From assembly GCA_027621405.1 (NCBI GenBank), contig JAQCBT010000002.1, forward strand, positions 124,001 through 188,000: DNA of 64,000 nucleotides, given 5' to 3'. The DNA is from Pseudomonadota bacterium (GTDB lineage: Bacteria > Pseudomonadota > Gammaproteobacteria > Pseudomonadales > Pseudohongiellaceae). Positions 1 through 44,357 of this stretch are shown in pieces (the first letter of the stretch is position 1; each line of letters begins with the position of its first letter). A program made the position numbers and the translations under genes. The notes under the pieces were generated by a model. That model was not told the DNA's origin and searched no databases. It saw only the letters and a list, made by a program, of their open reading frames with translations.

Positions 1-531
1 GATGAATACCCACGCGGCACCGAGATAATAGATTTCACTATCCTGGAAAAACTCTATTCCAAAAAACGCAGGTCCGTAGGTGCGGTCGGCATTGACGCCT
101 GCTTCGCCTCCAAAGAAGCTGACAAAGATAAGCGAAGACGCGGCCACCAGTTCCCCGATACCGAGGGAGATCATGGCGAAGACAGTGCCTGCCTTGTGTG
201 TAGAGAAGCTGCCGATGAATACTGCGGCCAGTAAGCCTATCAGACCACCAATCAAGGGAATGTAGATGATCGAGAAATAGACGGTTTCGTATTCGATCAT
301 CACCAGTGTATGCACGGCCATGAATCCGCCCAGACCGAAATACACCGCATGCCCAAACGACAGCATGCCGCCTTGGCCCAGCAGCATGTTGTAGCTGAGG
401 GCGAAGATGATGGCGATAGCCATCTGGTTGAAAATCGTAATGGCCAGTATGGAATCGAAGAGCAGGGGAAGTCCCAGCAATACTCCCAGGTAGGCAAGCC
501 AGATAGCAGACTTTTTTGCCAGGGTCTTCAT
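1..531 (-). CDS. livM: Branched-chain amino acid-type ABC transporter permease LivM (3' part cut by window edge)
   Basis: Inner-membrane permease of a Liv/HAAT-type ABC importer, paired with LivH. The first 177 codons are present and stay open to position 1. Reading from 531, the product begins MKTLAKKSAIWLAYLGVLLG and carries hydrophobic helices and the family motif SYNMLLGQGGMLSFGHA. The start is fixed by a 4-base ATGA overlap with the livH stop, which implies translational coupling. The C-terminal half and any livG/livF ATPase genes lie outside the window. The substrate cannot be read from the permease; branched-chain amino acids, amides and urea are all known for the family. Confidence 0.93.
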   Translation of the reverse strand, partial: MKTLAKKSAIWLAYLGVLLGLPLLFDSILAITIFNQMAIAIIFALSYNMLLGQGGMLSFGHAVYFGLGGFMAVHTLVMIEYETVYFSIIYIPLIGGLIGLLAAVFIGSFSTHKAGTVFAMISLGIGELVAASSLIFVSFFGGEAGVNADRTYGPAFFGIEFFQDSEIYYLGAAWVFI

Positions 532-1478
532 TGCTCTCGCTTACCTGCGATACCCGTGGGGCGGAATATCAACACCAGCACCAACAACAGGAAGGGGAGT
601 ATGGGTGCAATCTGGGGCAGGGTCAGGGTCCACAGGTCGGTGAGCGGATGATCGCGAGAAAATTCGAGACCCACAAGATTCAGTAAGTCTGGCATGCCAA
701 CATTGGATGCGATGGCATAGCTCTGCAGCAGGCCGATCAGCAAGGATGCAATGAAGGCACCACCCAGGGAGCCCAGGCCCCCGATGACGACGATGACAAA
801 CACGATGCTGCCCAACACTACGGCCATGCCAGGGAAGGTAGTCAGCACAGGCCCCGCGATAACTCCAGCCACACCTGCGAGTGCCGTTCCCACACCGAAC
901 ACGCCCATGAAGATAAACGGAACATTGTGACCCAGGTTGGCCACAGTATGTGGATGGGTGATGGCAGCCTGAATAATAATGCCTATACGGCTGCGGGTAA
1001 GCACATAGTAGAGGCCGATAAAGATGCCAACGGATATGGCGATCATGAATCCGCGATAGGCGGAGAACTCCTGGCCGAATAGTGTGAAGAGTGGGAAGTC
1101 CAGGATGTCGGGTGATTGGTAGTTCTTGGTGTCCGGCCCCCAGAAGAACTGCACCGCTTCTTCTATGAGGAATGCCAGTCCAAAGGTGAATACCAGTTCA
1201 GCCACGTGACCATGGGCATGCACTCTTCTCAGGGCAAAGCGTTCTACTACAGCGCCCAGTATGCCTACGATCAGGGGAGCGAAGATCAGGCCCATCCAGA
1301 AGCCAAGGTGCAGGGAGATGGAATAGGCGAAATAGGCGCCCAGCATGTAGAAACTGGCGTGGGCAAAATTGAGTACCCCCATCATGCTGAAGATGAGAGT
1401 GAGCCCGCTGGCCAGCATGAATAGAAGTAGCCCCGTGACGAGGCCATTCAGAGTAGAAAAAATGAAGACTTCCAGCAT
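528..1478 (-). CDS. livH: Branched-chain amino acid-type ABC transporter permease LivH
   Basis: Inner-membrane permease of the Liv/HAAT family, 316 aa, the normal family length. It is hydrophobic throughout, with about eight predicted helices. Family signatures are visible: GLTLIFSMMGVLNFAHASFY near residues 25-45, and VIGGLGSLGGAFIASLLIGL in the C-terminal third, the cytoplasmic loop that contacts the ATPase. It lies 52 bases after the binding-protein gene and overlaps livM by four bases, so the three are one transcription unit. No ATPase is visible; it would be expected past the left edge. Confidence 0.95.
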   Translation of the reverse strand: MLEVFIFSTLNGLVTGLLLFMLASGLTLIFSMMGVLNFAHASFYMLGAYFAYSISLHLGFWMGLIFAPLIVGILGAVVERFALRRVHAHGHVAELVFTFGLAFLIEEAVQFFWGPDTKNYQSPDILDFPLFTLFGQEFSAYRGFMIAISVGIFIGLYYVLTRSRIGIIIQAAITHPHTVANLGHNVPFIFMGVFGVGTALAGVAGVIAGPVLTTFPGMAVVLGSIVFVIVVIGGLGSLGGAFIASLLIGLLQSYAIASNVGMPDLLNLVGLEFSRDHPLTDLWTLTLPQIAPILPFLLLVLVLIFRPTGIAGKREQ

Positions 1479-1530: not shown

Positions 1531-2790
1531 TTAGCGTCGCGGGCGTTGCATGCGGCAGCTGTGATCCATGATGGTGTTTTCGGCGGGGACTGAATACTCA
1601 CGTAGCAGGCCGAATCCAGAGTTGTCTGCGTCCACCACGATGTTCTGGTCTGTGTGCACCGAGATATGCAGCGATTGGATTATCTGGTGATCTTCGCCGC
1701 GCATCCACAACTCCTCTCCGCTCATGTTGACGAAACGCATATCCTCCAGAGCCAGGGCAATATCGTAGGGATCGGTACTCTGGCTTTCTTCCATTGCCTT
1801 GACCAGCATCTGCAGCGCGTTGGTGATGCGGTGCTGGGTCATATCATTGTCAGGATTCAGGCGCTTGAACTTCTGAATGTATTCGAGGCGTTCCTGGGTC
1901 GGGATCGGATTGCCGGCGTCATTGTGGATCAGGCGTATCTTGTCTACACCATCGGCGCCCAGCGTTGCAGTGATGCCATCATAGGCGGCATAGAAAGTAT
2001 AGATAGGGATTTCCAGTCCGCTGTCGATGATGGATCGAGCGAGGGACACCATGTCGGCTCCGAAATTGCCGGTGATAACAGCGTCTGCACCGGAAGACAC
2101 AATCTTGGTGACGTATGGCGTGAAATCCTTGACCTGCCCGATGGGGTGAAACTCGTTACCCACTATTTCGATATCGGGGCGCTTCTCCCTGAGTAGTTCG
2201 ATTGAAGTATCGGCTACAACCTGCCCAAAGGAATAGTCCTGACCGATTATGTACATCTTCTTGATGTCAGGATTCATGGCAATGTAATCCGTCAGCACAT
2301 TCAGCTTCATGATGGCATGGGCATCGAAACGGAAATGCCAGAAACTGCATTCTTCATTGGTGAGTATGGGATCCACGGCCGAGTAATTGATCTGCAGAAT
2401 TTCCTGACCGGGATTACGTCGATTGTGGCGAGTGATGGTCGAGTTCAGGGTATTGGCGACGGCAGAACTATTGCCCTGGAAAATGATGCGAATGTCCTCG
2501 CTGACGGCCCTGCGAAATTGAATCTGGGTTTCTGTTGGGCTCTGCTTGTTGTCCAGCGGAACAATCTCGATCATGCGCCCGCCGAGGATTCCGCCCCTGG
2601 AGTTAAAGAGTTCCTCAGCAGCGTATTGCAGTTGCTTGAGGCCGCTGTTGCCAACCGAGGCAAAGGTGCCAGACAGCGGATCCATGAAGGCGATGCGGAT
2701 GGGTTCCTGGGCACTTGCGAGAGAAGAGCCCTGAATCAACAGGCTCACGAGAAGTAATTTGAGGCTGGTGTTGCTGAATAATCTCATCAT
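1531..2790 (-). CDS. Periplasmic substrate-binding protein of a Liv-type ABC transporter
   Basis: Type I periplasmic binding protein (Peripla_BP_6/LivK-like) of 419 aa that should deliver substrate to the LivH/LivM permeases. Residues 1-27 form a Sec signal peptide ending near SLASAQ; the mature protein opens with IRIAFMDPLSGTFASVGNSG, the usual first strand of the fold. The start is the first of two consecutive ATG codons. The family also serves urea, amides and aromatic acids, so the ligand is open. It is preceded by a 267-base gap after the thiolase gene, where I see no clear terminator. An A-rich stretch just before the start lacks a strong Shine-Dalgarno sequence. Confidence 0.9.
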   Translation of the reverse strand: MMRLFSNTSLKLLLVSLLIQGSSLASAQEPIRIAFMDPLSGTFASVGNSGLKQLQYAAEELFNSRGGILGGRMIEIVPLDNKQSPTETQIQFRRAVSEDIRIIFQGNSSAVANTLNSTITRHNRRNPGQEILQINYSAVDPILTNEECSFWHFRFDAHAIMKLNVLTDYIAMNPDIKKMYIIGQDYSFGQVVADTSIELLREKRPDIEIVGNEFHPIGQVKDFTPYVTKIVSSGADAVITGNFGADMVSLARSIIDSGLEIPIYTFYAAYDGITATLGADGVDKIRLIHNDAGNPIPTQERLEYIQKFKRLNPDNDMTQHRITNALQMLVKAMEESQSTDPYDIALALEDMRFVNMSGEELWMRGEDHQIIQSLHISVHTDQNIVVDADNSGFGLLREYSVPAENTIMDHSCRMQRPRR

Positions 2791-3057: not shown

Positions 3058-4242
3058 CTAGTAGACTTCAAACAGGCCTGCTGCACCCATGCCGCCGCCG
3101 ACGCACATGGTGCACACAACATATTTGGCGCCGCGGCGCTTGCCCTCGATGAGGGCGTGCCCAACCATGCGCGCGCCGCTCATGCCATAGGGATGTCCGA
3201 TGGAGATAGCGCCACCATTCACGTTCAGCAATTCGTTGGGAATGCCCAGGATGTCCCGGCAATAGATAACCTGCACGGCGAAAGCCTCATTGAGTTCCCA
3301 AAGCCCGATATCGTCCATGCCCAGGTTAAATCGCTGTAGTAACTTGGGCACGGCTTTTACCGGGCCGATACCCATCTCATCAGGATCAACACCCGCCACG
3401 GCCATTCCACGATAGGCGCCCAGTGGTTGCAGTCCTTTCTTTTCTGCCAGGGTGCTGTCCATGAGGACGGATGCGGATGCGCCATCCGAGAGTTGACTGG
3501 CATTGCCCGCCGTAATCACGCCACCCTCGAAGACTGTCTTGAGTCCATTGAGCCCTTCCAGGGTAGTACTCGGACGATTGCCCTCATCCTTGTCCAGGGT
3601 GATGTCGTGCACACTCTGTTTTTTGGATTCCTTGTCCACGAAAATCATCTTCGAAGCCAGGGGAGCGATTTCATCATCGAAGGCACCCGTGAGTTGGGCT
3701 GCTGCAGTGCGCTGCTGACTCTGCAAGGCGTATTCGTCTTGTTGTTCGCGACTGATGTTGTATCGCCTGGCAACTATCTCGGCGGTTTCCAGCATGGACA
3801 TGTAGGCGTGTTGGGAGCGGGAAGTAACAGCCTCGGAAACGGCGCGATAGGAATTGCGGTGCTCGTTCTGTACCAGGCTGATGGATTCGAGGCCGCCACC
3901 AACCACGATCGGCATATTGTCCTGCACGACCTGCTTGGCTGCGGTGCAGATCGCCATCATGCCCGAGGCGCACTGGCGATCCATGCTCATTCCCGACACA
4001 CTGCTGGGCAGACCTGCGGCCACGCCGGCGGTGCGCCCGATGTTGTAACCGGAGCTTCCCTGTTGCATGGCGCAGCCCATGACTACATCGTCGACCTCCG
4101 CCGGATCTATGCCAGCGCGCCGCACCGCCTCAGCGATTACGTGGCCGCCCAGGGTCGGCGCATCCGTGTCATTGAAGGCTCCGCGGTAGGCTCGGCCTAT
4201 AGGTGTACGAGCGGTGGAAACGATTACGGCTTCTTTGGTCAT
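3058..4242 (-). CDS. Thiolase (acetyl-CoA C-acyltransferase family)
   Basis: Thiolase of 394 aa that makes or thiolytically cleaves a beta-ketoacyl-CoA in the cytoplasm. The catalytic set is complete: nucleophile Cys91 in DRQCASGMM, His350 in GHPYGMSG and Cys380 in CVGGGMG; NEAFAVQ is also present. A ribosome site GGAGAAG sits just upstream of the ATG. The gene starts 13 bases after the UGSC selenoprotein stop, so the two are almost certainly cotranscribed. Sequence alone does not separate a degradative FadA-type enzyme from a biosynthetic AtoB/PhaA type; the neighbouring importer favours catabolism (inference). Confidence 0.92.
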
Positions 4243-4255
4243 TTACTTCTCCAGT

Positions 4256-4780
4256 TTATTTCGATTTCGCCACCAGGGAGACGATCGACTCGATGGCGGT
4301 TCGGGCCAGTTCTGCCATTTCAGCATCGCTACGATCCTGAATGGGGTGGGGCACAAAGACGCTCGCCGGCTTGATGCCCAGCGAATTGCCCTGAGCCTCG
4401 GCGGCTTCTATGAATTCCGTAGAGGCGACAAATCCTGAGGGTAGTCCGCGACTCTCGAGGTCCATGATGTCATGCAAACTGCACGAGGTACATGAGCCTC
4501 AGTCGGCCAGTCCTTCAATGACAGCGTCACACTCGACGCTAATCCTCTGATTGAGTTCCCGCGGCGCGACTCGGGCGAAGGTCGGCTTGCAATAGCGATT
4601 CACCGTGGCGCCGAGTTCCAGCAATTGTCTCTCTACCTCGTCGAGAAACTCTTTGCCCCTGGGCTTGGAAATGTCCAGCAGGCCGATGGTCGCTCCAGCC
4701 AACTGTTCGAGGCGTGGCAGGAGTTGCCTTTCCGCCGGGTTCAGTTCGCTGGTGGGATCCAGCATGGTGAGATTACTCAT
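4256..4780 (-). CDS. UGSC-family selenoprotein (UGA codon 94 read as selenocysteine)
   Basis: One 174-aa gene that ordinary ORF calling splits at an in-frame TGA (4499-4501). Upstream residues 1-93 end in CDAVIEGLAD; the codons after TGA read GSCTSCSLHDIMDLE, and the frame stays open to 4256. Cysteine homologues of this family have C-G-S-C-T-S at the same place, so TGA at the first position is the family's known selenocysteine site. A ribosome site GGAG precedes the ATG at 4780; the downstream half has no ribosome site of its own. The N-terminal part has the family pattern GLLDISKPRG. selA, selB and selC are all in this window. The biochemical role of the family is unknown; a redox role for Sec-x-x-Cys is inferred. 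Confidence 0.93.
4457..4501 (-). promoter_or_regulatory. Candidate bacterial SECIS hairpin of the UGSC selenoprotein
   Basis: The mRNA directly after the UGA can fold. The outer stem pairs 4500-4497 (GAGG) with 4460-4457 (CCUC) and 4494-4491 (CAUG) with 4466-4463 (CAUG). An internal loop follows, then an apical stem of 4484-4480 (GUGCA) with 4476-4472 (UGCAU). The apical loop is G-U-U at 4479-4477, so a guanosine heads the loop 19 bases after UGA. That is inside the range described for SelB-binding bacterial SECIS elements. Folding was done by eye. Confidence 0.6.
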
Positions 4781-4820
4781 ATCAATCTCCGATTTAAGGA
4801 ATTAACAAAATTGCGCTTCA

Positions 4821-6296
4821 TCAGATTTTCTGTGATACCAGTTGGCTGCCTTTGTCGCCAGAGGCAACCCAGCCACTGATAATGGCCGAGAACATGCCGG
4901 CGGTGCCGCCAGCGGTAACGATATGCAGGCCATCATCCCGAAACTTGTTCAGCAGTTTGTCCTTGAATTTCTCGGGCATACCTTCTGTCATGCCGCCGAC
5001 TCCACTCATCAATTCGGTGCCAGGTGTCATTAGATGATCGTAGAGAGCCTGGCGCAGGCGTTCCTTGTCCCAGCCACCCTCTCTGAATACTCGCCTGTGC
5101 TCGGGGCAAACGACGAGAATAGCATCCGCCATGCCGTACTTCTTTACATGGGCTACCGAGCGCAAGCTGGCTGCCATGCTCAGGGCCAGGGATTCCGGTT
5201 CCCGGGAGAGTTGATCCAGCACCGGCTGAACGCCGTCTCCTGCGAACAGGCTAACAACCGAGTCTGCTCTTCGGAAGCCCCGGTCCATGGCCAGGCTGGG
5301 CCACTCTGGATCAGATTCATCCTCCGCGAAACAGAACGTGTATTTACCCGGATTCCCCAGGGTCGCACGGTCGATGCCTCCCGGCTTGCCGCCACCGACA
5401 TTGCGAATCAATAGCTGCAGTGCGCGCCCGATAGTGGCATTGGCGCGGTTACCCTGGCCCAGGGCGTTGCCGCCTGAATTCATGCCGATGCGTTTGACAA
5501 TCGGGCCATTAACGATGACTACCGGGGAAGAGAAGTAGGTGGTACACAGTAGGCCGTGCATGCAGAACTCGTCCTTGAGGGCAGCCTCTACCACAGCGAG
5601 CACCGTAGGAAAGTAGTCGGGCTTACAGCCTGCGAGCACGGCGTTTATGGCGACTTTCTCGACGCTGCATTCGGCATAATCTGGCGGCACCCGCCCCACT
5701 ATTTCTGAGGCAGCCCGATCGCTGGCGGCCAGCATGCGCAGCACCCGGACCGGTGTTGGAGGGACAACCGGTAAACCATCTGTCCAGCCGCGTTCATAGC
5801 AGGCTTCCATTTCGTCTTCGGCATCGGCCAGGTCAATGCGCCGCGCCGAGAGGGCTTCACTGGCAAATCGGGCGGCGAGTATTTCCTGCATGCCGGGATC
5901 TTCCGTCATGGAACCACAGCCCGGCTTGAAGGCAACAAGTTCTGCACCGAGGTCTTCGATCCCGGAAAATTCGCGCCACTGCTCTCGGTCCCATCCTACG
6001 ATCCGCCCGGACTCTTCCTTGCCATCCCTGCGTATGAGGGTGGGAACTATTTCGATCTTGTTGTGGAAGGAGTATTCGAGGCTGGAGTCGTCAGAGCTGT
6101 TAATGTCATCAAGGCTTTCCAGGAAGTCTGGATCATCCTGGACATAGACTTGCAGGTCCACTCGTCGGGCTAATTGCTGGATAACCGGCAGGATCAACTC
6201 GCAGGTGGGGCAGGCTTTCTTGACTACCAGGGAATAGGACTGGGTGCTGTCAGAATTCAAGAGCTTAGTAGATGAATCCCAGCGTGCAGATGCCAA
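4821..6296 (-). CDS. Large thioredoxin-like protein, putative partner of the UGSC selenoprotein
   Basis: Protein of up to 491 aa with no firm family name from me. The N-terminus looks like a thioredoxin/glutaredoxin fold with a CPTC active site (residues 29-32 of the long form) after YSLVVKKA. The rest is a conserved-looking domain with DGLPVVPPTP, ECSVEKVAINAVLAGCKPDY and NSGGNALGQGNRANATIGRA, plus several further cysteines. The listed start is TTG at 6296 and overlaps the upstream gene by 32 bases; a TTG at 6260, just past that gene's stop, is an alternative. It ends 40 bases before the selenoprotein gene. A role in reducing or working with the UGSC selenoprotein is inferred from position and the CxxC motif. 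Confidence 0.8.
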   Translation of the reverse strand: MASARWDSSTKLLNSDSTQSYSLVVKKACPTCELILPVIQQLARRVDLQVYVQDDPDFLESLDDINSSDDSSLEYSFHNKIEIVPTLIRRDGKEESGRIVGWDREQWREFSGIEDLGAELVAFKPGCGSMTEDPGMQEILAARFASEALSARRIDLADAEDEMEACYERGWTDGLPVVPPTPVRVLRMLAASDRAASEIVGRVPPDYAECSVEKVAINAVLAGCKPDYFPTVLAVVEAALKDEFCMHGLLCTTYFSSPVVIVNGPIVKRIGMNSGGNALGQGNRANATIGRALQLLIRNVGGGKPGGIDRATLGNPGKYTFCFAEDESDPEWPSLAMDRGFRRADSVVSLFAGDGVQPVLDQLSREPESLALSMAASLRSVAHVKKYGMADAILVVCPEHRRVFREGGWDKERLRQALYDHLMTPGTELMSGVGGMTEGMPEKFKDKLLNKFRDDGLHIVTAGGTAGMFSAIISGWVASGDKGSQLVSQKI

Positions 6297-6609
6297 CCAG
6301 GATATTAATAATCATGAAGATTGAAGAAGTGCGTGAGACGACTTTCCACAGCTGTGGACCGTTATACGCGGCGCGGATACCCACGACTAGAAGCAAGGTA
6401 TAAGCAAACATGACGGCCACGATAATCAGGAACGTGATCCAGTTTTCTTCATCCACCGCCTGACTGCCTGTGAAGAAGAATAATGAGGCTCCTATGAAGT
6501 AGAGTATCCAGTAAGTAACTGCGAGGCCGTATTCCCCGGCAAACAGTTTCGCCAGGAAGGAGCGGTCGTCACCCTCATGAATCTCGGTTGTAGTGTGTGT
6601 GTCTGTCAT
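6265..6609 (-). CDS. Small integral membrane protein, unknown function
   Basis: A 114-aa protein with a polar threonine-rich N-terminus (residues 1-25) and three likely membrane helices: about 30-48 (TYWILYFIGASLFFFTG), 58-77 (ITFLIIVAVMFAYTLLLVVG) and 94-113. No catalytic motif is visible. It is the first gene of the leftward selenoprotein/Liv series, and its 3' end overlaps the long form of the thioredoxin-like gene. The promoter for the operon should lie in 6610-6864, shared with the divergent BRCT gene; I could not fix it. Confidence 0.7.
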   Translation of the reverse strand: MTDTHTTTEIHEGDDRSFLAKLFAGEYGLAVTYWILYFIGASLFFFTGSQAVDEENWITFLIIVAVMFAYTLLLVVGIRAAYNGPQLWKVVSRTSSIFMIINILVGICTLGFIY

Positions 6610-10309: not shown

Positions 10310-10903
10310 GTGAAGGCGACACTGCTGACGGGGAAGCAAGTGCTACAGGAAACAGAAGAACAACTGGTGCGATCAGCCCAGACTGGAAACATCGCCGCCT
10401 TCGAACGGCTGGTGATTTCGCTCGAGCGCCAGATGCTGGCGGTGGCGGCAGGATTCGCCCACACCCCCGATGACGCCAATGATATTTTCCAGGATGCCAT
10501 GCTGGCGGCCTACCGGGCCTTGCCGAACTTCAAGCTTGAGAGTCGGTTCAGTACCTGGATGCACAAGATTGTCGTGAACACGGCACTGTCGAATCGGCGC
10601 AAGCTGAAACGCACCTGGCAGAAGATGTCGGCGGTGCAGGCGGAGTACGAGCACCAGGAGCAGTATGTTGAAGATCAGTCTCCGGAATCCACGGTGTTGG
10701 ATGGGGAACTGAACACGCAGATCAACCGGGCCATGAAGCGACTCACCGACAGTGAACGCATAGCCTTCGTGCTCTGCCATCAGCAGGGATTTAAATTGCG
10801 GGAAGCCGCAGAAGTAATGAATTGCTCGGAAAACTCGGTAAAGGTGATTTTGTTCCGGGCACGCAAGAAATTGAAAGAACAGTTGGCGGAATATCATTCC
10901 TAG
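10310..10903 (+). CDS. ECF-family RNA polymerase sigma factor (RpoE-like)
   Basis: A 197-aa extracytoplasmic-function sigma factor. Region 2 lies at about residues 15-85, with DANDIFQDAMLAAYRALPNF and RFSTWMHKIVVNTALSNRR. Region 4 lies at about residues 135-195, with LREAAEVMNCSENSVKVILF as the helix-turn-helix that reads the -35 element. The listed start is GTG at 10310; a GTG at 10340 is possible. The next gene, 27 bases on, has the layout of a membrane anti-sigma factor, and the third encodes an exported DUF4097 protein. That suggests an envelope-stress regulon. Confidence 0.92.
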   Translation: MKATLLTGKQVLQETEEQLVRSAQTGNIAAFERLVISLERQMLAVAAGFAHTPDDANDIFQDAMLAAYRALPNFKLESRFSTWMHKIVVNTALSNRRKLKRTWQKMSAVQAEYEHQEQYVEDQSPESTVLDGELNTQINRAMKRLTDSERIAFVLCHQQGFKLREAAEVMNCSENSVKVILFRARKKLKEQLAEYHS

Positions 10904-11908: not shown

Positions 11909-11955
11909 CCCGGTACCCCATTTTGCTATCAAGTATTGAGTCAGAGGATAGAACC

Positions 11956-13161
11956 ATGACAACTTTTAAATCCACACTACTGGCAGGCGCAACCTTGCTG
12001 TTGACACTGGGTGCAAGCAACCCGGGGTATGCGCAAGCGGATAGTTACGACCAGGAATTCGATGTCGATTCCGGCGGAACCTTGATGCTGCGCAGTGATT
12101 CGGGCCCGATAAGTGTAAGGACCTGGGATCAGGAACGGGTCAGGGTACGCATTCGTAATGCCGAGGACTTTGAGGTAAGCCTGGAGCAGCGGGGCGACGA
12201 TGTGGTCGTCGTTGCCGAGGCGGAACGCCGTGGTGGCATATTCGGATTTCGAACTTCCAATATTCAGTTTGATGTGGATGTTCCCGAAGCCTATAACGTC
12301 GATCTGGACACGGGCGGCGGAAGCATCTCGGTGGAAGATATCAGCGGCGATGTCACCGCGGATACCAGTGGCGGTAGCATAGAAATTGGCAACGTCACCG
12401 GTGTGGTGACAGCCGATACTTCCGGTGGCCGCATCAACATCGGCGATGTGGACGGCGATGTTTCGGCCGACACCTCCGGTGGCAATATCGAGATCGGGAA
12501 TGTCACCGGTGATGTGAGCGCCGATACCTCCGGTGGTCGCATAACCATCGGCAACGTCGGTGGCGACCTGCTGGCCGACACCTCGGGTGGCAACATCACC
12601 GTGGGTCAGGGATCTGGTCGTGTGCAACTGGATACTTCCGGTGGCACGATTCGCGCAGCCTGGGCACTTGGCCCGGTAATCGCGGACACTTCCGGGGGCA
12701 ATATCTATCTTGAAGGCAGCGAAACCAGCGTCGAGGCCGATACCTCCGGTGGCAACATCGAGATCGAACGCAGTGGTGGTGCAGTTACCGCGGATACGTC
12801 TGGCGGCAGTATCACCATTCGCCAGGCAGTTGGGCCAATTCGGGCAGATACTGCCGGCGGTCGCATAGATGCCGAACTGGCTGCGTTCTCAGGCTCCAGG
12901 GATGCAACCGTCGAACTGGAGACAGCGGGTGGTGATGTCACCTTACGCATTCCCGGAGGTCACAATGCCAGCATCGTGGCTGACCTGGAAGTCTCCCGCA
13001 GGGCGAGAGGCGACTACCGCATCTACACGGACTTCCCGCTTACCATCAATGAGGACGACGACGGCAATATCATTGCCCGTGGCGATATAAATGGTGGTGG
13101 AGACAGGATCTACCTGGAGACCGTTAATAGTGACATCCACATCGTCAGTACCGGCAACTAG
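11956..13161 (+). CDS. Exported DUF4097-type beta-helix repeat protein
   Basis: A 401-aa protein from the ATG at 11956 with an AGAGGA ribosome site; a longer frame from 11923 is less likely. Residues 1-27 are a signal peptide (LLLTLGASNPGYAQ). From about residue 110 to 305 the protein repeats the motif ADTSGGxIxIGxVxGDVx at 17-19 residue spacing, about a dozen copies, predicting a right-handed beta solenoid of the DUF4097 (adhesin-like) family. It follows the sigma/anti-sigma pair and is probably its main output. A strong terminator follows. Confidence 0.85.
   Translation: MTTFKSTLLAGATLLLTLGASNPGYAQADSYDQEFDVDSGGTLMLRSDSGPISVRTWDQERVRVRIRNAEDFEVSLEQRGDDVVVVAEAERRGGIFGFRTSNIQFDVDVPEAYNVDLDTGGGSISVEDISGDVTADTSGGSIEIGNVTGVVTADTSGGRINIGDVDGDVSADTSGGNIEIGNVTGDVSADTSGGRITIGNVGGDLLADTSGGNITVGQGSGRVQLDTSGGTIRAAWALGPVIADTSGGNIYLEGSETSVEADTSGGNIEIERSGGAVTADTSGGSITIRQAVGPIRADTAGGRIDAELAAFSGSRDATVELETAGGDVTLRIPGGHNASIVADLEVSRRARGDYRIYTDFPLTINEDDDGNIIARGDINGGGDRIYLETVNSDIHIVSTGN
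12340..12870 (+). repeat. Degenerate tandem coding repeat (ADTSGG units)
   Basis: About ten copies of a 51-57 base unit built around GCCGATACCTCCGGTGGC encode the solenoid turns of the DUF4097 protein. Nucleotide copies are similar enough for recombination to change copy number. Confidence 0.75.
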
Positions 13162-16296: not shown

Positions 16297-16391
16297 GGAA
16301 GAGTATCATCCCCGGTGGGGTGCCCGGACTTCAAACCCGGTGAAGTCTGTTAATACAGGCTTGGTGGGTTCGACTCCTGCCTCTTCCGCCA
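16297..16391 (+). tRNA. selC: Selenocysteine tRNA (anticodon UCA)
   Basis: A 95-base tRNA with encoded CCA. The acceptor stem is GGAAGAG with CTCTTCC, discriminator G at 16388. The D stem has six pairs (16307-16312 with 16317-16322), a tRNA-Sec hallmark. The anticodon loop CTTCAAA has TCA at 16331-16333. The long variable arm has an eight-pair stem AAGTCTGT/ACAGGCTT with loop TAAT, and the T loop is TTCGACT. Oddities: the closing anticodon-stem pair is A-C (16328/16336), and the acceptor appears as seven strong pairs where eight are usual. It delivers Sec through SelA and SelB, both encoded in this window. Confidence 0.97.
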
Positions 16392-29135: not shown

Positions 29136-31085
29136 TCAAACCTGTTTAAAGATGTTTTCCTTGCTGGTCCGCAGGAAGCGCGTGTTGTCATCGCGCCGGG
29201 TGAAGCCAATCCTGTCGAAGTACTCCAAGATCTCGATGCAGAGATTGCGGCCGATGCCGGAGGCGTCGCGGAACTGGATGACGGAGAATCCGGAATCTTC
29301 ATCACCGGTTAGTGACTCGGTGAACGCGGCGAGTTCCATGATGGTCTCGGGCAGGAAGTAGCGGTTGTCCGCCACCTTGACCAGGTTGCCGGACTGGGTG
29401 GTCTGCTTGAGGATTCGCTCCAGGGGGCGCAGGGGGATGCCGGTCATCTCCACCAGTTCCCGGGTGCGCGGCGGTATGTTGCCGGATTTCAGGAGGATGG
29501 GGCGGATTTTTTCCAGGAAGTCTTTCTCTTCCTGGCTGAGCACGGCCTGGTGGTCCGGCAGGTGCAGCAGGGTGCCGGAGCGTGTGATGGCGCCGTCGGC
29601 GATCAGTTTTTCCAGCAGGCTGTGGAACAGCAGGTGCGAGCCAGCAAAATCCAGTTCCTTGCTCAGGGCCGGTTCGCTGAGTCCTCTGACATGGGGCTGG
29701 CGTTGATGGAAGGCATCCAGGTGGCTGAGGATTGCCCGCGCGTAGTCATCGTAGAACCTGCTGCCCAACAGGACTCTCGACCTGGTCTGGGGGAGTGGCA
29801 GGACCACGCCATCCAGGCCTGCAATCTTCGAATCCATAATCTCGGTGGGTAGATTGTAATTGTCGGCCAGCGCATCGGGGTCGAGGCCGAAGGCGGCGCT
29901 GTCGAGGAGTTGCGGCAAGGCATCATCGATTGGAGCTTTCAAGGCGTCGACGAAGGCGATTCTCGACTCGCTGCTGCGACCCCGTCGCGGCACGTTGATG
30001 TCCAGTACCCGGCCACCACCGAGGGTGCGACTACCGGCGGGGTCGCGCAACACGAAGCGGTCGCCGTGCACACAATACAGGTTGTCATCGCTGCGTAGCT
30101 GGAAGATTTTTTTCGCGGCATCCAGGGGGCGGACGGTGACGATGTGGTGCGCGGCACCCATATAAAGATGGTATTGCGCGCCGGTCTTTAATGACTCATC
30201 GGGATTCGTGAGGGACAGTTCCACATCGATCCTGTTCTGGGCGGTCCGGCGATCACGCGCCAGCAGCCAGTCGCCGCGCTTGATGCTGTCTTCGGCAAGG
30301 GTGATGTTTAACGCGGCCCGTTGACCCGCCTGCGCCGTGTTCACTTCCCTGTTGTCCAGGCGCATACCCCGGATGCGTGCCTCTTCCCCGGTGGCCGACA
30401 AGACCAGCCTGTCGTCTACCGCGAGGCTGCCGGACCTGACACTGCCGGTGACCACCGTGCCGATTCCCTTTACCTTGAAGCTGCGGTCTATTAGGAAGCG
30501 CGTCTTCTGCCCGGGCAGGTCGGTGGCATCCGCGGCCGTGTTTCCTAACAAGCCTTCCAGGTGAGTGCGCAGGGCGTCGATGCCGGCGCCGGAGACGTTG
30601 TCTACCGGAAAGAATTCTGCGGCGAGATTGCGCTCCGCCAAGAGTGCCGACAGGTTTTCTTTAACTTCCTGCACCCGTTGTTCGTCCACCCGGTCGATCT
30701 TGCTGAGGGCGATGGCAAGCTGGTGAATGCCCAGCAGATCCAGAATCTGCAGGTGCTCGATGGTCTGGGGCATGATGCCGTCGTCGGCGGCCACCACCAG
30801 CAGGGCATGTTCGACCCCGCCGACCCCGGCCAACATGTTCTGGATAAAATCGATGTGACCCGGCACGTCCACGAAGCCGAGGCAGAGTGACTCGCCGGTC
30901 TCTGCATCGGCGAAGTGATGATAGGCGTAGCCGAGGTTGATGGTGAGCCCCCGGGATTTTTCTTCCTGCAGGGTGTCGGTTTCCACGCCGGTAAGCTGCC
31001 TGACCAGGGAAGTCTTGCCGTGGTCTACATGGCCAGCGGTGGCGATGATGAGTTGTCGGGAACTGCTACTCGTGAGATCAGGCAT
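29136..31085 (-). CDS. selB: Selenocysteine-specific translation elongation factor SelB
   Basis: A 649-aa GTPase that carries Sec-tRNA-Sec to UGA codons marked by a SECIS hairpin. G motifs: [17 protein letters not shown] (residues 17-33), the switch [13 protein letters not shown] and SKID. Domains II-III follow, then C-terminal winged helices (about residues 400-649) that bind the SECIS. Length is near the E. coli protein (614 aa). It lies 50 bases after lldP on the same strand and may be read through from it. The clear client in this window is the UGSC protein at 4256-4780. Confidence 0.96.
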
Positions 31086-42929: not shown

Positions 42930-44357
42930 TTGATAGACAAGCCTGCCTTATTTCGCGCCCTGCCCTCTGTGGACAGCATTCTCGCCGATCCTGCGCTCAG
43001 GCAGCTCTGTGCTGAGGCCGGCAGGCCTGTGGTGCTGGCCGCCGTGCGCAGCCTGCAGGAGAAATACCGGCAGGCGATCCAGCAGGAAGACCGGGCCACT
43101 ATGGAGCTGATCCAGGCGGGCGATGTGCACGCCGCGATCGTGGCGGCCGTGCTGCAGTCGGTGGCGGTGCGCCGCAGCAGTTCCCTGCAGCCCGTATTCA
43201 ACCTCAGCGGCACGGTGATCCACACTAACCTGGGGCGGGCACGGCTGCCGCGGGAGGCGGTAGCCGCCATGGAGCTGGTGGCCCTGGAGGCAAACAATCT
43301 CGAGTACGATCTGGACAGGGGCGCGCGGGGAGATCGTGACAGTCACCTGGAGGCCATCCTCTGTGAGCTAACCGGTGCCGAGGCCGCGACCGTGGTCAAC
43401 AACAATGCGGCGGCGGTGCTGCTGGTGCTGGGCACCTTCGCCAAGGGAAAGGAAGTGTTGATCTCCCGGGGAGAACTGGTGGAGATCGGCGGCAGCTTTC
43501 GCATTCCCGATGTCATGGAGAGTGCTGGCTGCAAGTTACGGGAAGTGGGCACTACGAACCGCACCCACCTGAAAGACTTCAGCGCCGCCATAAACAGTGA
43601 CACCGGGCTCCTCATGCAGGTGCATACCAGCAACTACGAGATTCGCGGCTTCACGAATGCGGTGCCGGCGGCGGAGCTGGCCGCGCTGGGGCGTGAGCAT
43701 GGCATTCCCTTCGTCTCCGACCTGGGCAGCGGCACCCTGGTCGACCTGCGCAGTTTCGGATTGCCCTACGAGACCACGGTGCAGGATGAACTGCAGGCCG
43801 GCGCCCAACTCGTGACCTTCAGTGGCGACAAGCTGCTGGGCGGCCCGCAGGCAGGATTGATTGTGGGTGATGCCGAGTTGATCGCGGCGGTGAAACGCAA
43901 TCCCCTGAAGCGGGCCCTGCGCATCGACAAGGTGACCATGGCTGCGCTGCTGCAGGTGCTGGCTCTGTATCGTGATCCGGCGCGCCTGAAGGAGCGCCTG
44001 CCAACCCTCGCCGACCTGAGTCGCGGCGCAGACGATATCGAGGCCTGCTGCCAGCGGATGCTGCCGGCACTGGTCAGTCGATTAAGTGCTGCGGCAACCC
44101 TGGAGGTGGTGGCCTGCAAGAGCCAGATCGGCAGTGGCGCGCTGCCCACCGACCTGCTGGACAGTTTCGCCATCGCCATCCGGCCCATCGCCGAGCAGGG
44201 CAGGCGGGATGCCAGCCTGCAGGCGCTGTCCCTGGCGTTTCGCAGGCTGCCGAAACCGGTGGTCGGCAGGGTGCATGATGGTGCGCTGTACCTGGACCTG
44301 CGCTGCCTGCGGGATGAAGCCGGATTCGTCGCCCAGCTGGATGAACTAGCCCCCTGA
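42930..44357 (+). CDS. selA: L-seryl-tRNA(Sec) selenium transferase SelA
   Basis: A 475-aa PLP enzyme that converts seryl-tRNA-Sec to selenocysteinyl-tRNA-Sec with selenophosphate, as a large cytoplasmic ring. The PLP lysine is K301 in TFSGDKLLGGPQAGLI; NLSGTVIHTNLGRA and VNNNAAAVLLVLG are family signatures. Length is close to E. coli SelA (463). The start is TTG at 42930, since an in-frame TGA lies two codons upstream. It stands apart from selB and selC, and its 3' end overlaps the converging Bcr/CflA gene by 12 bases. The selenophosphate donor gene selD is not in this window. Confidence 0.96.
   Translation: MIDKPALFRALPSVDSILADPALRQLCAEAGRPVVLAAVRSLQEKYRQAIQQEDRATMELIQAGDVHAAIVAAVLQSVAVRRSSSLQPVFNLSGTVIHTNLGRARLPREAVAAMELVALEANNLEYDLDRGARGDRDSHLEAILCELTGAEAATVVNNNAAAVLLVLGTFAKGKEVLISRGELVEIGGSFRIPDVMESAGCKLREVGTTNRTHLKDFSAAINSDTGLLMQVHTSNYEIRGFTNAVPAAELAALGREHGIPFVSDLGSGTLVDLRSFGLPYETTVQDELQAGAQLVTFSGDKLLGGPQAGLIVGDAELIAAVKRNPLKRALRIDKVTMAALLQVLALYRDPARLKERLPTLADLSRGADDIEACCQRMLPALVSRLSAAATLEVVACKSQIGSGALPTDLLDSFAIAIRPIAEQGRRDASLQALSLAFRRLPKPVVGRVHDGALYLDLRCLRDEAGFVAQLDELAP

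Follow-up and report, generated by a model that had tools for sequence, protein, structure and literature searches.

Selenoproteins of the UGSC family have been known since at least 2008, when PMC2398784 counted them among the commonest selenoprotein families of an ocean survey (255 Sec and 21 Cys sequences) and placed them among thiol oxidoreductases or proteins with a thioredoxin-like fold; the same paper mentions a UGSC/Unknown_1 fusion. For the Geodermatophilaceae, PMC5330540 describes a tRNA-Sec with the anticodon CUA together with UGSC-motif selenoproteins, citing a paper of 2016. The available parts of PMC2398784, PMC13188914, PMC9312934, PMC7539508, PMC9402790 and PMC5330540 give no activity for UGSC. 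The gene analyzed here is a further member of this family and lies in a 64,000-nt stretch of DNA from a bacterium of the Pseudohongiellaceae (the window). A preliminary description had regarded it as an entry to a new selenium-dependent reaction; we likewise found no activity for the family, but the family itself is not new, having been catalogued by 2008 and named by both NCBI and Pfam. We propose, with a probability of roughly 0.6, that the full-length selenoprotein and the product of the gene at 4821-6296 make up a two-protein reductase fed by thioredoxin, in which the selenoprotein is the Sec subunit. Given a partner, a probable source of electrons and a plausible relative in terms of mechanism, an 'unknown selenoprotein' becomes a concrete, testable two-protein enzyme.

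The following features define the selenoprotein gene:

4256..4780, minus strand: UGSC-family selenoprotein gene, 174 codons plus a TAA stop, with Sec at codon 94
4499..4501, minus strand: in-frame UGA as selenocysteine codon, in the motif A-D-U-G-S-C-T-S-C
4786..4790, minus strand: ribosome-binding-site-like GGAGA, five bases ahead of the ATG at 4780 (seen by eye)
4454..4501, minus strand: bacterial SECIS-like hairpin from the UGA on, with the loop GUU and 19 bases between the UGA and the loop G

When TGA is read as a residue, the minus-strand frame from 4780 to 4256 encodes 174 amino acids with a single UGA (codon 94) and ends on TAA; the sequence around the UGA is ADUGSCTSCSLHD. Translation table 11 splits the same gene into a frame of 93 amino acids (4499-4780) and a TTG-started one of 73 amino acids (4256-4477). 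The preliminary description, which gave no strand, had joined these two small frames through the TGA into a 174-residue UGSC-family protein, and the family models agree: NF041046 ('UGSC family (seleno)protein') matches with 141.8 bits against a cut-off of 125 and PF24696 with 137.4 bits against a cut-off of 25, both matches spanning the UGA. The second half had also been said to have no ribosome site, and by eye the GGAGA stands only before the ATG at 4780, with no similar stretch before the start candidates 3' of the UGA. In 45 relatives the alignment covers the whole length, on both sides of the UGA, with 42-79% identity. C/U94, S96 and C97 are invariant in an alignment of 13 UGSC sequences, and C/U94, G95, S96 and C97 in one of 46.

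We then compared the codon at the selenocysteine site among the homologues. Among the sequences used for the SECIS test, it is UGA in 102, Cys in nine and UAG in five; the test omitted those with no recognizable motif or with fewer than 63 bases from the site onward; the Sec and Cys counts also omit L164, which is cut by a contig end, and the second fragment of L149. The nine Cys members come from four haloarchaea, Embleya, Roseovarius, Arthrobacter, Variovorax and one further genome. Thus the match of AD-U-GSC to the active-site block of the family, as noted in the preliminary description, stands, but its statement that the other members carry Cys does not: Cys is the minority residue at this site and Sec the usual one. 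UAG occupies the codon in all five Geodermatophilaceae loci (Blastococcus and Geodermatophilus), and each of these five genomes has a tRNA-Sec by RF01852 with the anticodon CUA, which ARAGORN labels tRNA-Pyl. This exchange of UAG and tRNA-Sec(CUA) in Geodermatophilaceae UGSC is already published and was re-found here. Within the order of the window's bacterium, PF24696 matches were found in 24 of 244 genomes and above the cut-off in 21; exactly one TGA is present in 26 of the 27 over-cut-off matches and none in the remaining one. In the class, three of 274 genomes gave a match, including that of the window. Weak PF24696 matches (profile about 55-104, below the cut-off) were seen at L049, L050 and L056 in stop-free frames of about 500 residues, and none of nine pattern matches in viral contigs was confirmed.

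The 48 bases from the UGA on have a folding energy of -19.2 kcal/mol. The loop G and U are positions 23 and 24 from the UGA, as in E. coli fdhF. Compared with synonymous-codon shuffles, z for the window sequence weakens from -2.6 over 51 nt to -2.0 over 45 nt and to just -0.7 over 42 nt; the mean over 51 nt was -1.15 for the 102 Sec sequences, -1.44 for the five UAG sequences and 0.10 for the nine Cys sequences. After thinning of the 102 Sec sequences to 60 with less than 92% identity, the loop was observed to start with GU in 55 of these 60 as against none of the nine Cys relatives, and the other five Sec relatives have CCG or UCG instead. The upper stem is paired in 91.7% of Sec cells compared to 69.8% in the Cys sequences; as controls, slid positions reached at most 58.6%, and 500 shuffles gave a mean of 88.0% and a maximum of 89.8%. 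For the lower stem, the pairing of 67.5% in Sec sequences equals that of the shuffles, and this comparison gives no support. The hairpin reported in the preliminary description, with its loop G 19 bases past the UGA, is thus backed by the fold and by the GU pattern in the relatives.

The machinery for decoding the UGA was found in the same genome, three of its four components within the window:

16297..16387, plus strand: tRNA-Sec with the anticodon UCA (RF01852, 67.8 bits; ARAGORN)
29169..31052, minus strand: selB, extent of the match (TIGR00475, 408.9 bits)
42951..44324, plus strand: selA, extent of the match (TIGR00474, 574.7 bits)

The fourth, selD, lies outside the window (267.8 bits). 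It sits at G000:C19:68668-69591 in an open frame of 786 residues, longer than selD alone, and is perhaps an Ndh-SelD fusion such as PMC2398784 describes. Judged by the family match, the exchange of Sec, Cys and UAG, the SECIS pattern and the Sec machinery, the gene at 4780-4256 is very probably a genuine selenoprotein gene, as the preliminary description had held; for the UGSC family such an assignment is routine.

Next to the selenoprotein gene we found a second gene of the same strand, here called the partner:

4821..6296, minus strand: partner gene, 491 amino acids, with an N-terminal thioredoxin domain and a C-terminal domain of about 340 residues

Its translation start is uncertain (TTG at 6296), and residues 1-16 are of low confidence. 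The thioredoxin domain carries C29-P-T-C32 and V84-P85, and the C-terminal domain the well-kept cysteines C224 and C322. No Pfam or NCBIfam family was found for the C-terminal domain; one of nine partner members matched PF02627 at E 0.019, which we took as chance. In a partner alignment thinned to 89 sequences, E325 and R291 are kept in all 89, C322 and H400 in 87 and C224 in 85, and the C-terminal domain is kept across bacteria and haloarchaea.

A homologue of the 4821-6296 protein adjoins UGSC in all 40 loci that were found through UGSC itself. These comprise the window, ten plasmid records (of 12; two further Paracoccus records were left out) and 29 others, and they include all 27 over-cut-off PF24696 matches. 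L011 and L081 are one place, which brings the 40 loci to 39 distinct ones and the total of 117 UGSC loci to 116; L011 was omitted from the SECIS test and from the 91-sequence UGSC profile comparison given below. Conversely, of 80 loci found by way of the partner, 77 contain UGSC. Having been picked by means of the window's partner, these 77 say nothing on whether a UGSC gene is ever without one; that can be tested only on the 40 UGSC-found loci. Of the three partner loci with no UGSC, L119 and L131 end at a contig edge just past the partner; the third, L163, has no UGSC within 17 kb and holds either an orphan partner or one whose UGSC is elsewhere. In L016, L062 and L082, UGSC and partner form one frame in which the Sec UGA is the sole stop codon. 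The UGSC-partner system is spread over several bacterial phyla and the haloarchaea. What we add to the description of the family is this near-constant pairing of UGSC with an unnamed partner, which in the window is fused to thioredoxin, together with the fold prediction and the moderate profile link to reductase subunit B given below.

Some loci show variant arrangements. The fused protein of L082 (584-2209) is a divergent form with U-S-S-C in place of U-G-S-C. By eye, both well-kept partner cysteines are replaced in it, so these cysteines are not indispensable, which argues against an essential redox role for them. The contig of L147 opens with a second partner copy (L147:1-1209), preceded in frame by what appears by eye to be the tail of a UGSC domain; this may be a further fusion, truncated where the contig ends. 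Two tandem UGSC genes with one UGA each stand beside a single partner at L141:9077-10148, and on two haloarchaeal plasmids (L017:5917-8576 and L021:5840-8536) two partner genes flank one UGSC gene of the Cys type. A 114-residue membrane-like protein with no Pfam family lies upstream of the partner in the window (6265-6609) and is placed so in six of the 117 loci.

The assignment of the N-terminal partner domain draws on sequence and on a predicted structure. C29-x-T-C32 and V84-P85 are invariant in 37 sequences, and a partner profile matched thioredoxins in the PDB with a best E of 0.0019, while the window partner sequence alone gave no PDB match. The partner model (pLDDT 88.7) led in Foldseek to thioredoxin-fold proteins with a best E of 0.004; for the C-terminal part, the best 50 rows held thioredoxin-fold proteins and one cyclic amide hydrolase, the latter a weak match with a probability of 0.20. 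The thioredoxin domain is present on the partner in 91 of 117 loci, but 77 of the 117 had been picked because they are close to the window's partner; in the 40 UGSC-found loci, 16 partners have the domain and 24 lack it. The other two of the 26 loci lacking it, L138 and L146, belong to the partner-found set: the L146 stretch begins at the edge of its contig, and no thioredoxin domain was found in the frame upstream of the L138 partner. In four of the 24 UGSC-found loci that lack the domain (L015, L019, L020 and L066), trxB lies within 5 kb, at L019 together with trxA; the trxB of L015 and L020 is above the TIGR01292 cut-off. The stretches examined for the remaining 20 yielded no trxB. By eye a trxB-like piece lies upstream at L012, and the longer copy, L082, gave no trxB match.

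We also investigated the genes around UGSC. In the window, the selenoprotein gene is followed by:

3058..4242, minus strand: acetyl-CoA C-acyltransferase (thiolase), directly downstream
1531..2790, minus strand: ABC transporter substrate-binding protein (Peripla_BP_6), in the same direction
528..1478, minus strand: ABC permease of the branched-chain amino acid or urea type, below the NCBIfam cut-offs

A thiolase in the same place and on the same strand occurs in nine of 117 UGSC loci, all of them close relatives and the window included; a tenth locus has a thiolase elsewhere, on the other strand. At other loci UGSC stands with TRAP or tripartite transporters and with CoA-transferases or lyases. 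Neighbor clusters with selB and selA were found at 13 and 12 of 117 loci, respectively (checked by family models in L093 only); the gene order in L093 is ABC transporter, partner, UGSC, selA, selB. Clustering of all neighboring ORFs was of little use because spurious antisense ORFs dominated it in loci of high G+C content; it was redone on non-overlapping ORFs, which left some spurious clusters, also among 39 clusters used as controls below. No fixed metabolic pathway was observed around UGSC in the 117 loci, and the neighbors differ widely by lineage. The neighborhood suggests catabolism of some imported small molecule. A ComA-type phosphosulfolactate synthase near UGSC at L019:3666-4454 (Arthrobacter) and L022:4497-4964 (a Natrinema plasmid) is a possible substrate hint. 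Farther off in the window we noticed a 412-residue frame with many DTSGG-type repeats, by eye perhaps a beta-solenoid (11923-13161), with a sigma-factor-like gene near it (10310-10903, by eye), and a cytochrome P450 (20256-21545; PF00067, 78.9 bits).

In the proposed reductase, SelB and tRNA-Sec(UCA) would decode the UGA at codon 94, aided by the adjacent hairpin. UGSC would be the Sec-bearing subunit and the product of 4821-6296 the other subunit, whose C-terminal domain may hold the substrate. The Sec selenolate, predicted to lie just past beta-strand 3 of a flavodoxin-like sandwich, would attack the substrate and free the reduced product, whereupon Cys97 would close an Se-S bond. The N-terminal thioredoxin domain of the partner would then reopen this bond with electrons from the thioredoxin reductase of the cell. 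By analogy, the closest working model may be the B subunit of D-proline/glycine reductase, minus the pyruvoyl group. The neighboring transporters, thiolases and CoA enzymes faintly hint that the substrate might be a small imported compound of the organic-acid or amide-like kind.

A different function would be that of a general thiol or selenol peroxidase or a disulfide reductase in redox defence, with the partner as its reductant. The U-x-x-C motif and the fused thioredoxin domain speak for this reading, as does the placement of the family among thiol oxidoreductases or Trx-like folds in PMC2398784, but the predicted fold of UGSC is not thioredoxin-like. The AlphaFold2 model, built on 46 sequences, has a pLDDT of 93.9 and consists of five strands alternating with helices, with Sec94 between the strand 86-92 and the helix 95-110. 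Foldseek related it weakly to many alpha/beta proteins, flavodoxin and lumazine synthase among them; query TM-scores were 0.28-0.55 in the best 50 of 1791 PDB matches (E up to 10). We predict from this model that UGSC is a flavodoxin-like sandwich and not the thioredoxin fold proposed in 2008; the latter was rejected on the differing order of strands and helices and on the absence of thioredoxin from these best 50 matches. Searched by sequence, UGSC gave no PDB match, and a second such search gave a best E of 0.11, to a 3-hydroxyacyl-CoA dehydrogenase. Moreover, the widely kept extra domain of about 340 residues on the partner exceeds what an electron donor needs, and at several loci the surrounding genes are those of transport and CoA metabolism. 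We consider a role in redox defence rather unlikely, though it deserves to be kept in mind beside the two-protein reductase.

Alternatively, UGSC could belong outright to the B subunits of glycine/D-proline reductase, with an amino acid or betaine as substrate and a pyruvoyl partner, which the profile similarity over the Sec domain would favor. When 13 diverse UGSC sequences were compared by hhalign to nine PrdB and GrdB-like sequences, we obtained a probability of 88% and an E of 3.2e-6, with the UGSC Sec aligned on the PrdB Sec/Cys and similar segments after it. With an alignment thinned to 91 UGSC sequences the score was 40.8 and the probability 78%; with 46 close ones the probability was only 24%. 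As controls, 200 column shuffles scored at most 21.8, the reversed alignment 17.6 and 39 other gene clusters, some of them spurious ORFs, at most 25.2 (41 clusters had been considered, and the two holding UGSC itself were left out). The profiles thus point to a link of moderate strength between UGSC and the Sec domain in subunit B of proline/glycine reductase. However, the match is limited to the C-terminal part of the PrdB/GrdB-like proteins, and UGSC has no match to PF07355: hmmscan, run at E up to 10 but with filters that discard most weak hits, listed only PF24696. A PrdB/GrdB-like profile searched against the PDB found no such protein and gave two short hits, both on proteins of other kinds. 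The partner shows no relation to three PrdA sequences, one of PrdD and one GrdE-like subunit, with an hhalign probability of 0.1% in each comparison; its candidacy as a PrdA/GrdE homologue was rejected on these values. From the dissimilarity of the partner to these subunits it follows that the chemistry of UGSC cannot be of the pyruvoyl type. Because the profile link is moderate, PF07355 does not match and the partner is unrelated, UGSC is better said to work like a reductase subunit B than to be one, and true membership is improbable.

That the UGA is a plain stop or the gene decayed, with the downstream frame a relic, is hardly credible: the standard code does split the frame, but the sequence is conserved beyond the UGA in the 45 aligned relatives, and Sec, Cys and UAG replace one another at the site.

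Beyond the two-protein, thioredoxin-fed reductase itself, a wider proposal can be made, which we put forward tentatively and which may well prove too bold. UGSC and its partner might form an unrecognized class of selenoenzyme. In such a reductase, the Sec domain would share ancestry with subunit B of glycine/D-proline reductase, an undescribed domain in place of the pyruvoyl subunit would activate the substrate, and one large subfamily would have the thioredoxin donor built in as its third domain.

Comparing the locus with the known systems, we saw no difference from the UGSC family of NF041046/PF24696: it scores above both cut-offs, carries Sec in U-G-S-C, has a hairpin after the UGA and stands beside the conserved partner, which in the window's subfamily bears an N-terminal thioredoxin domain. 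With the UGSC/Unknown_1 fusion of PMC2398784 it shares a UGSC domain joined or adjacent to a conserved domain, as in the fused L016, L062 and L082; Unknown_1 is likely, though unproven, to be the partner found here, but the accessible part of that paper makes no mention of a thioredoxin domain or of near-constant pairing. The Geodermatophilaceae UGSC of PMC5330540 belongs to the same family and has Sec at the same position, but uses UAG and tRNA-Sec(CUA) where the window has UGA and tRNA-Sec(UCA). Finally, PrdB and component B of glycine reductase (PF07355) have in common with UGSC the U/C-x-x-C, the LE..GIP after it and a further aligned segment, whereas UGSC is shorter, lacks a PF07355 match and has a partner other than the PrdA/GrdE type.
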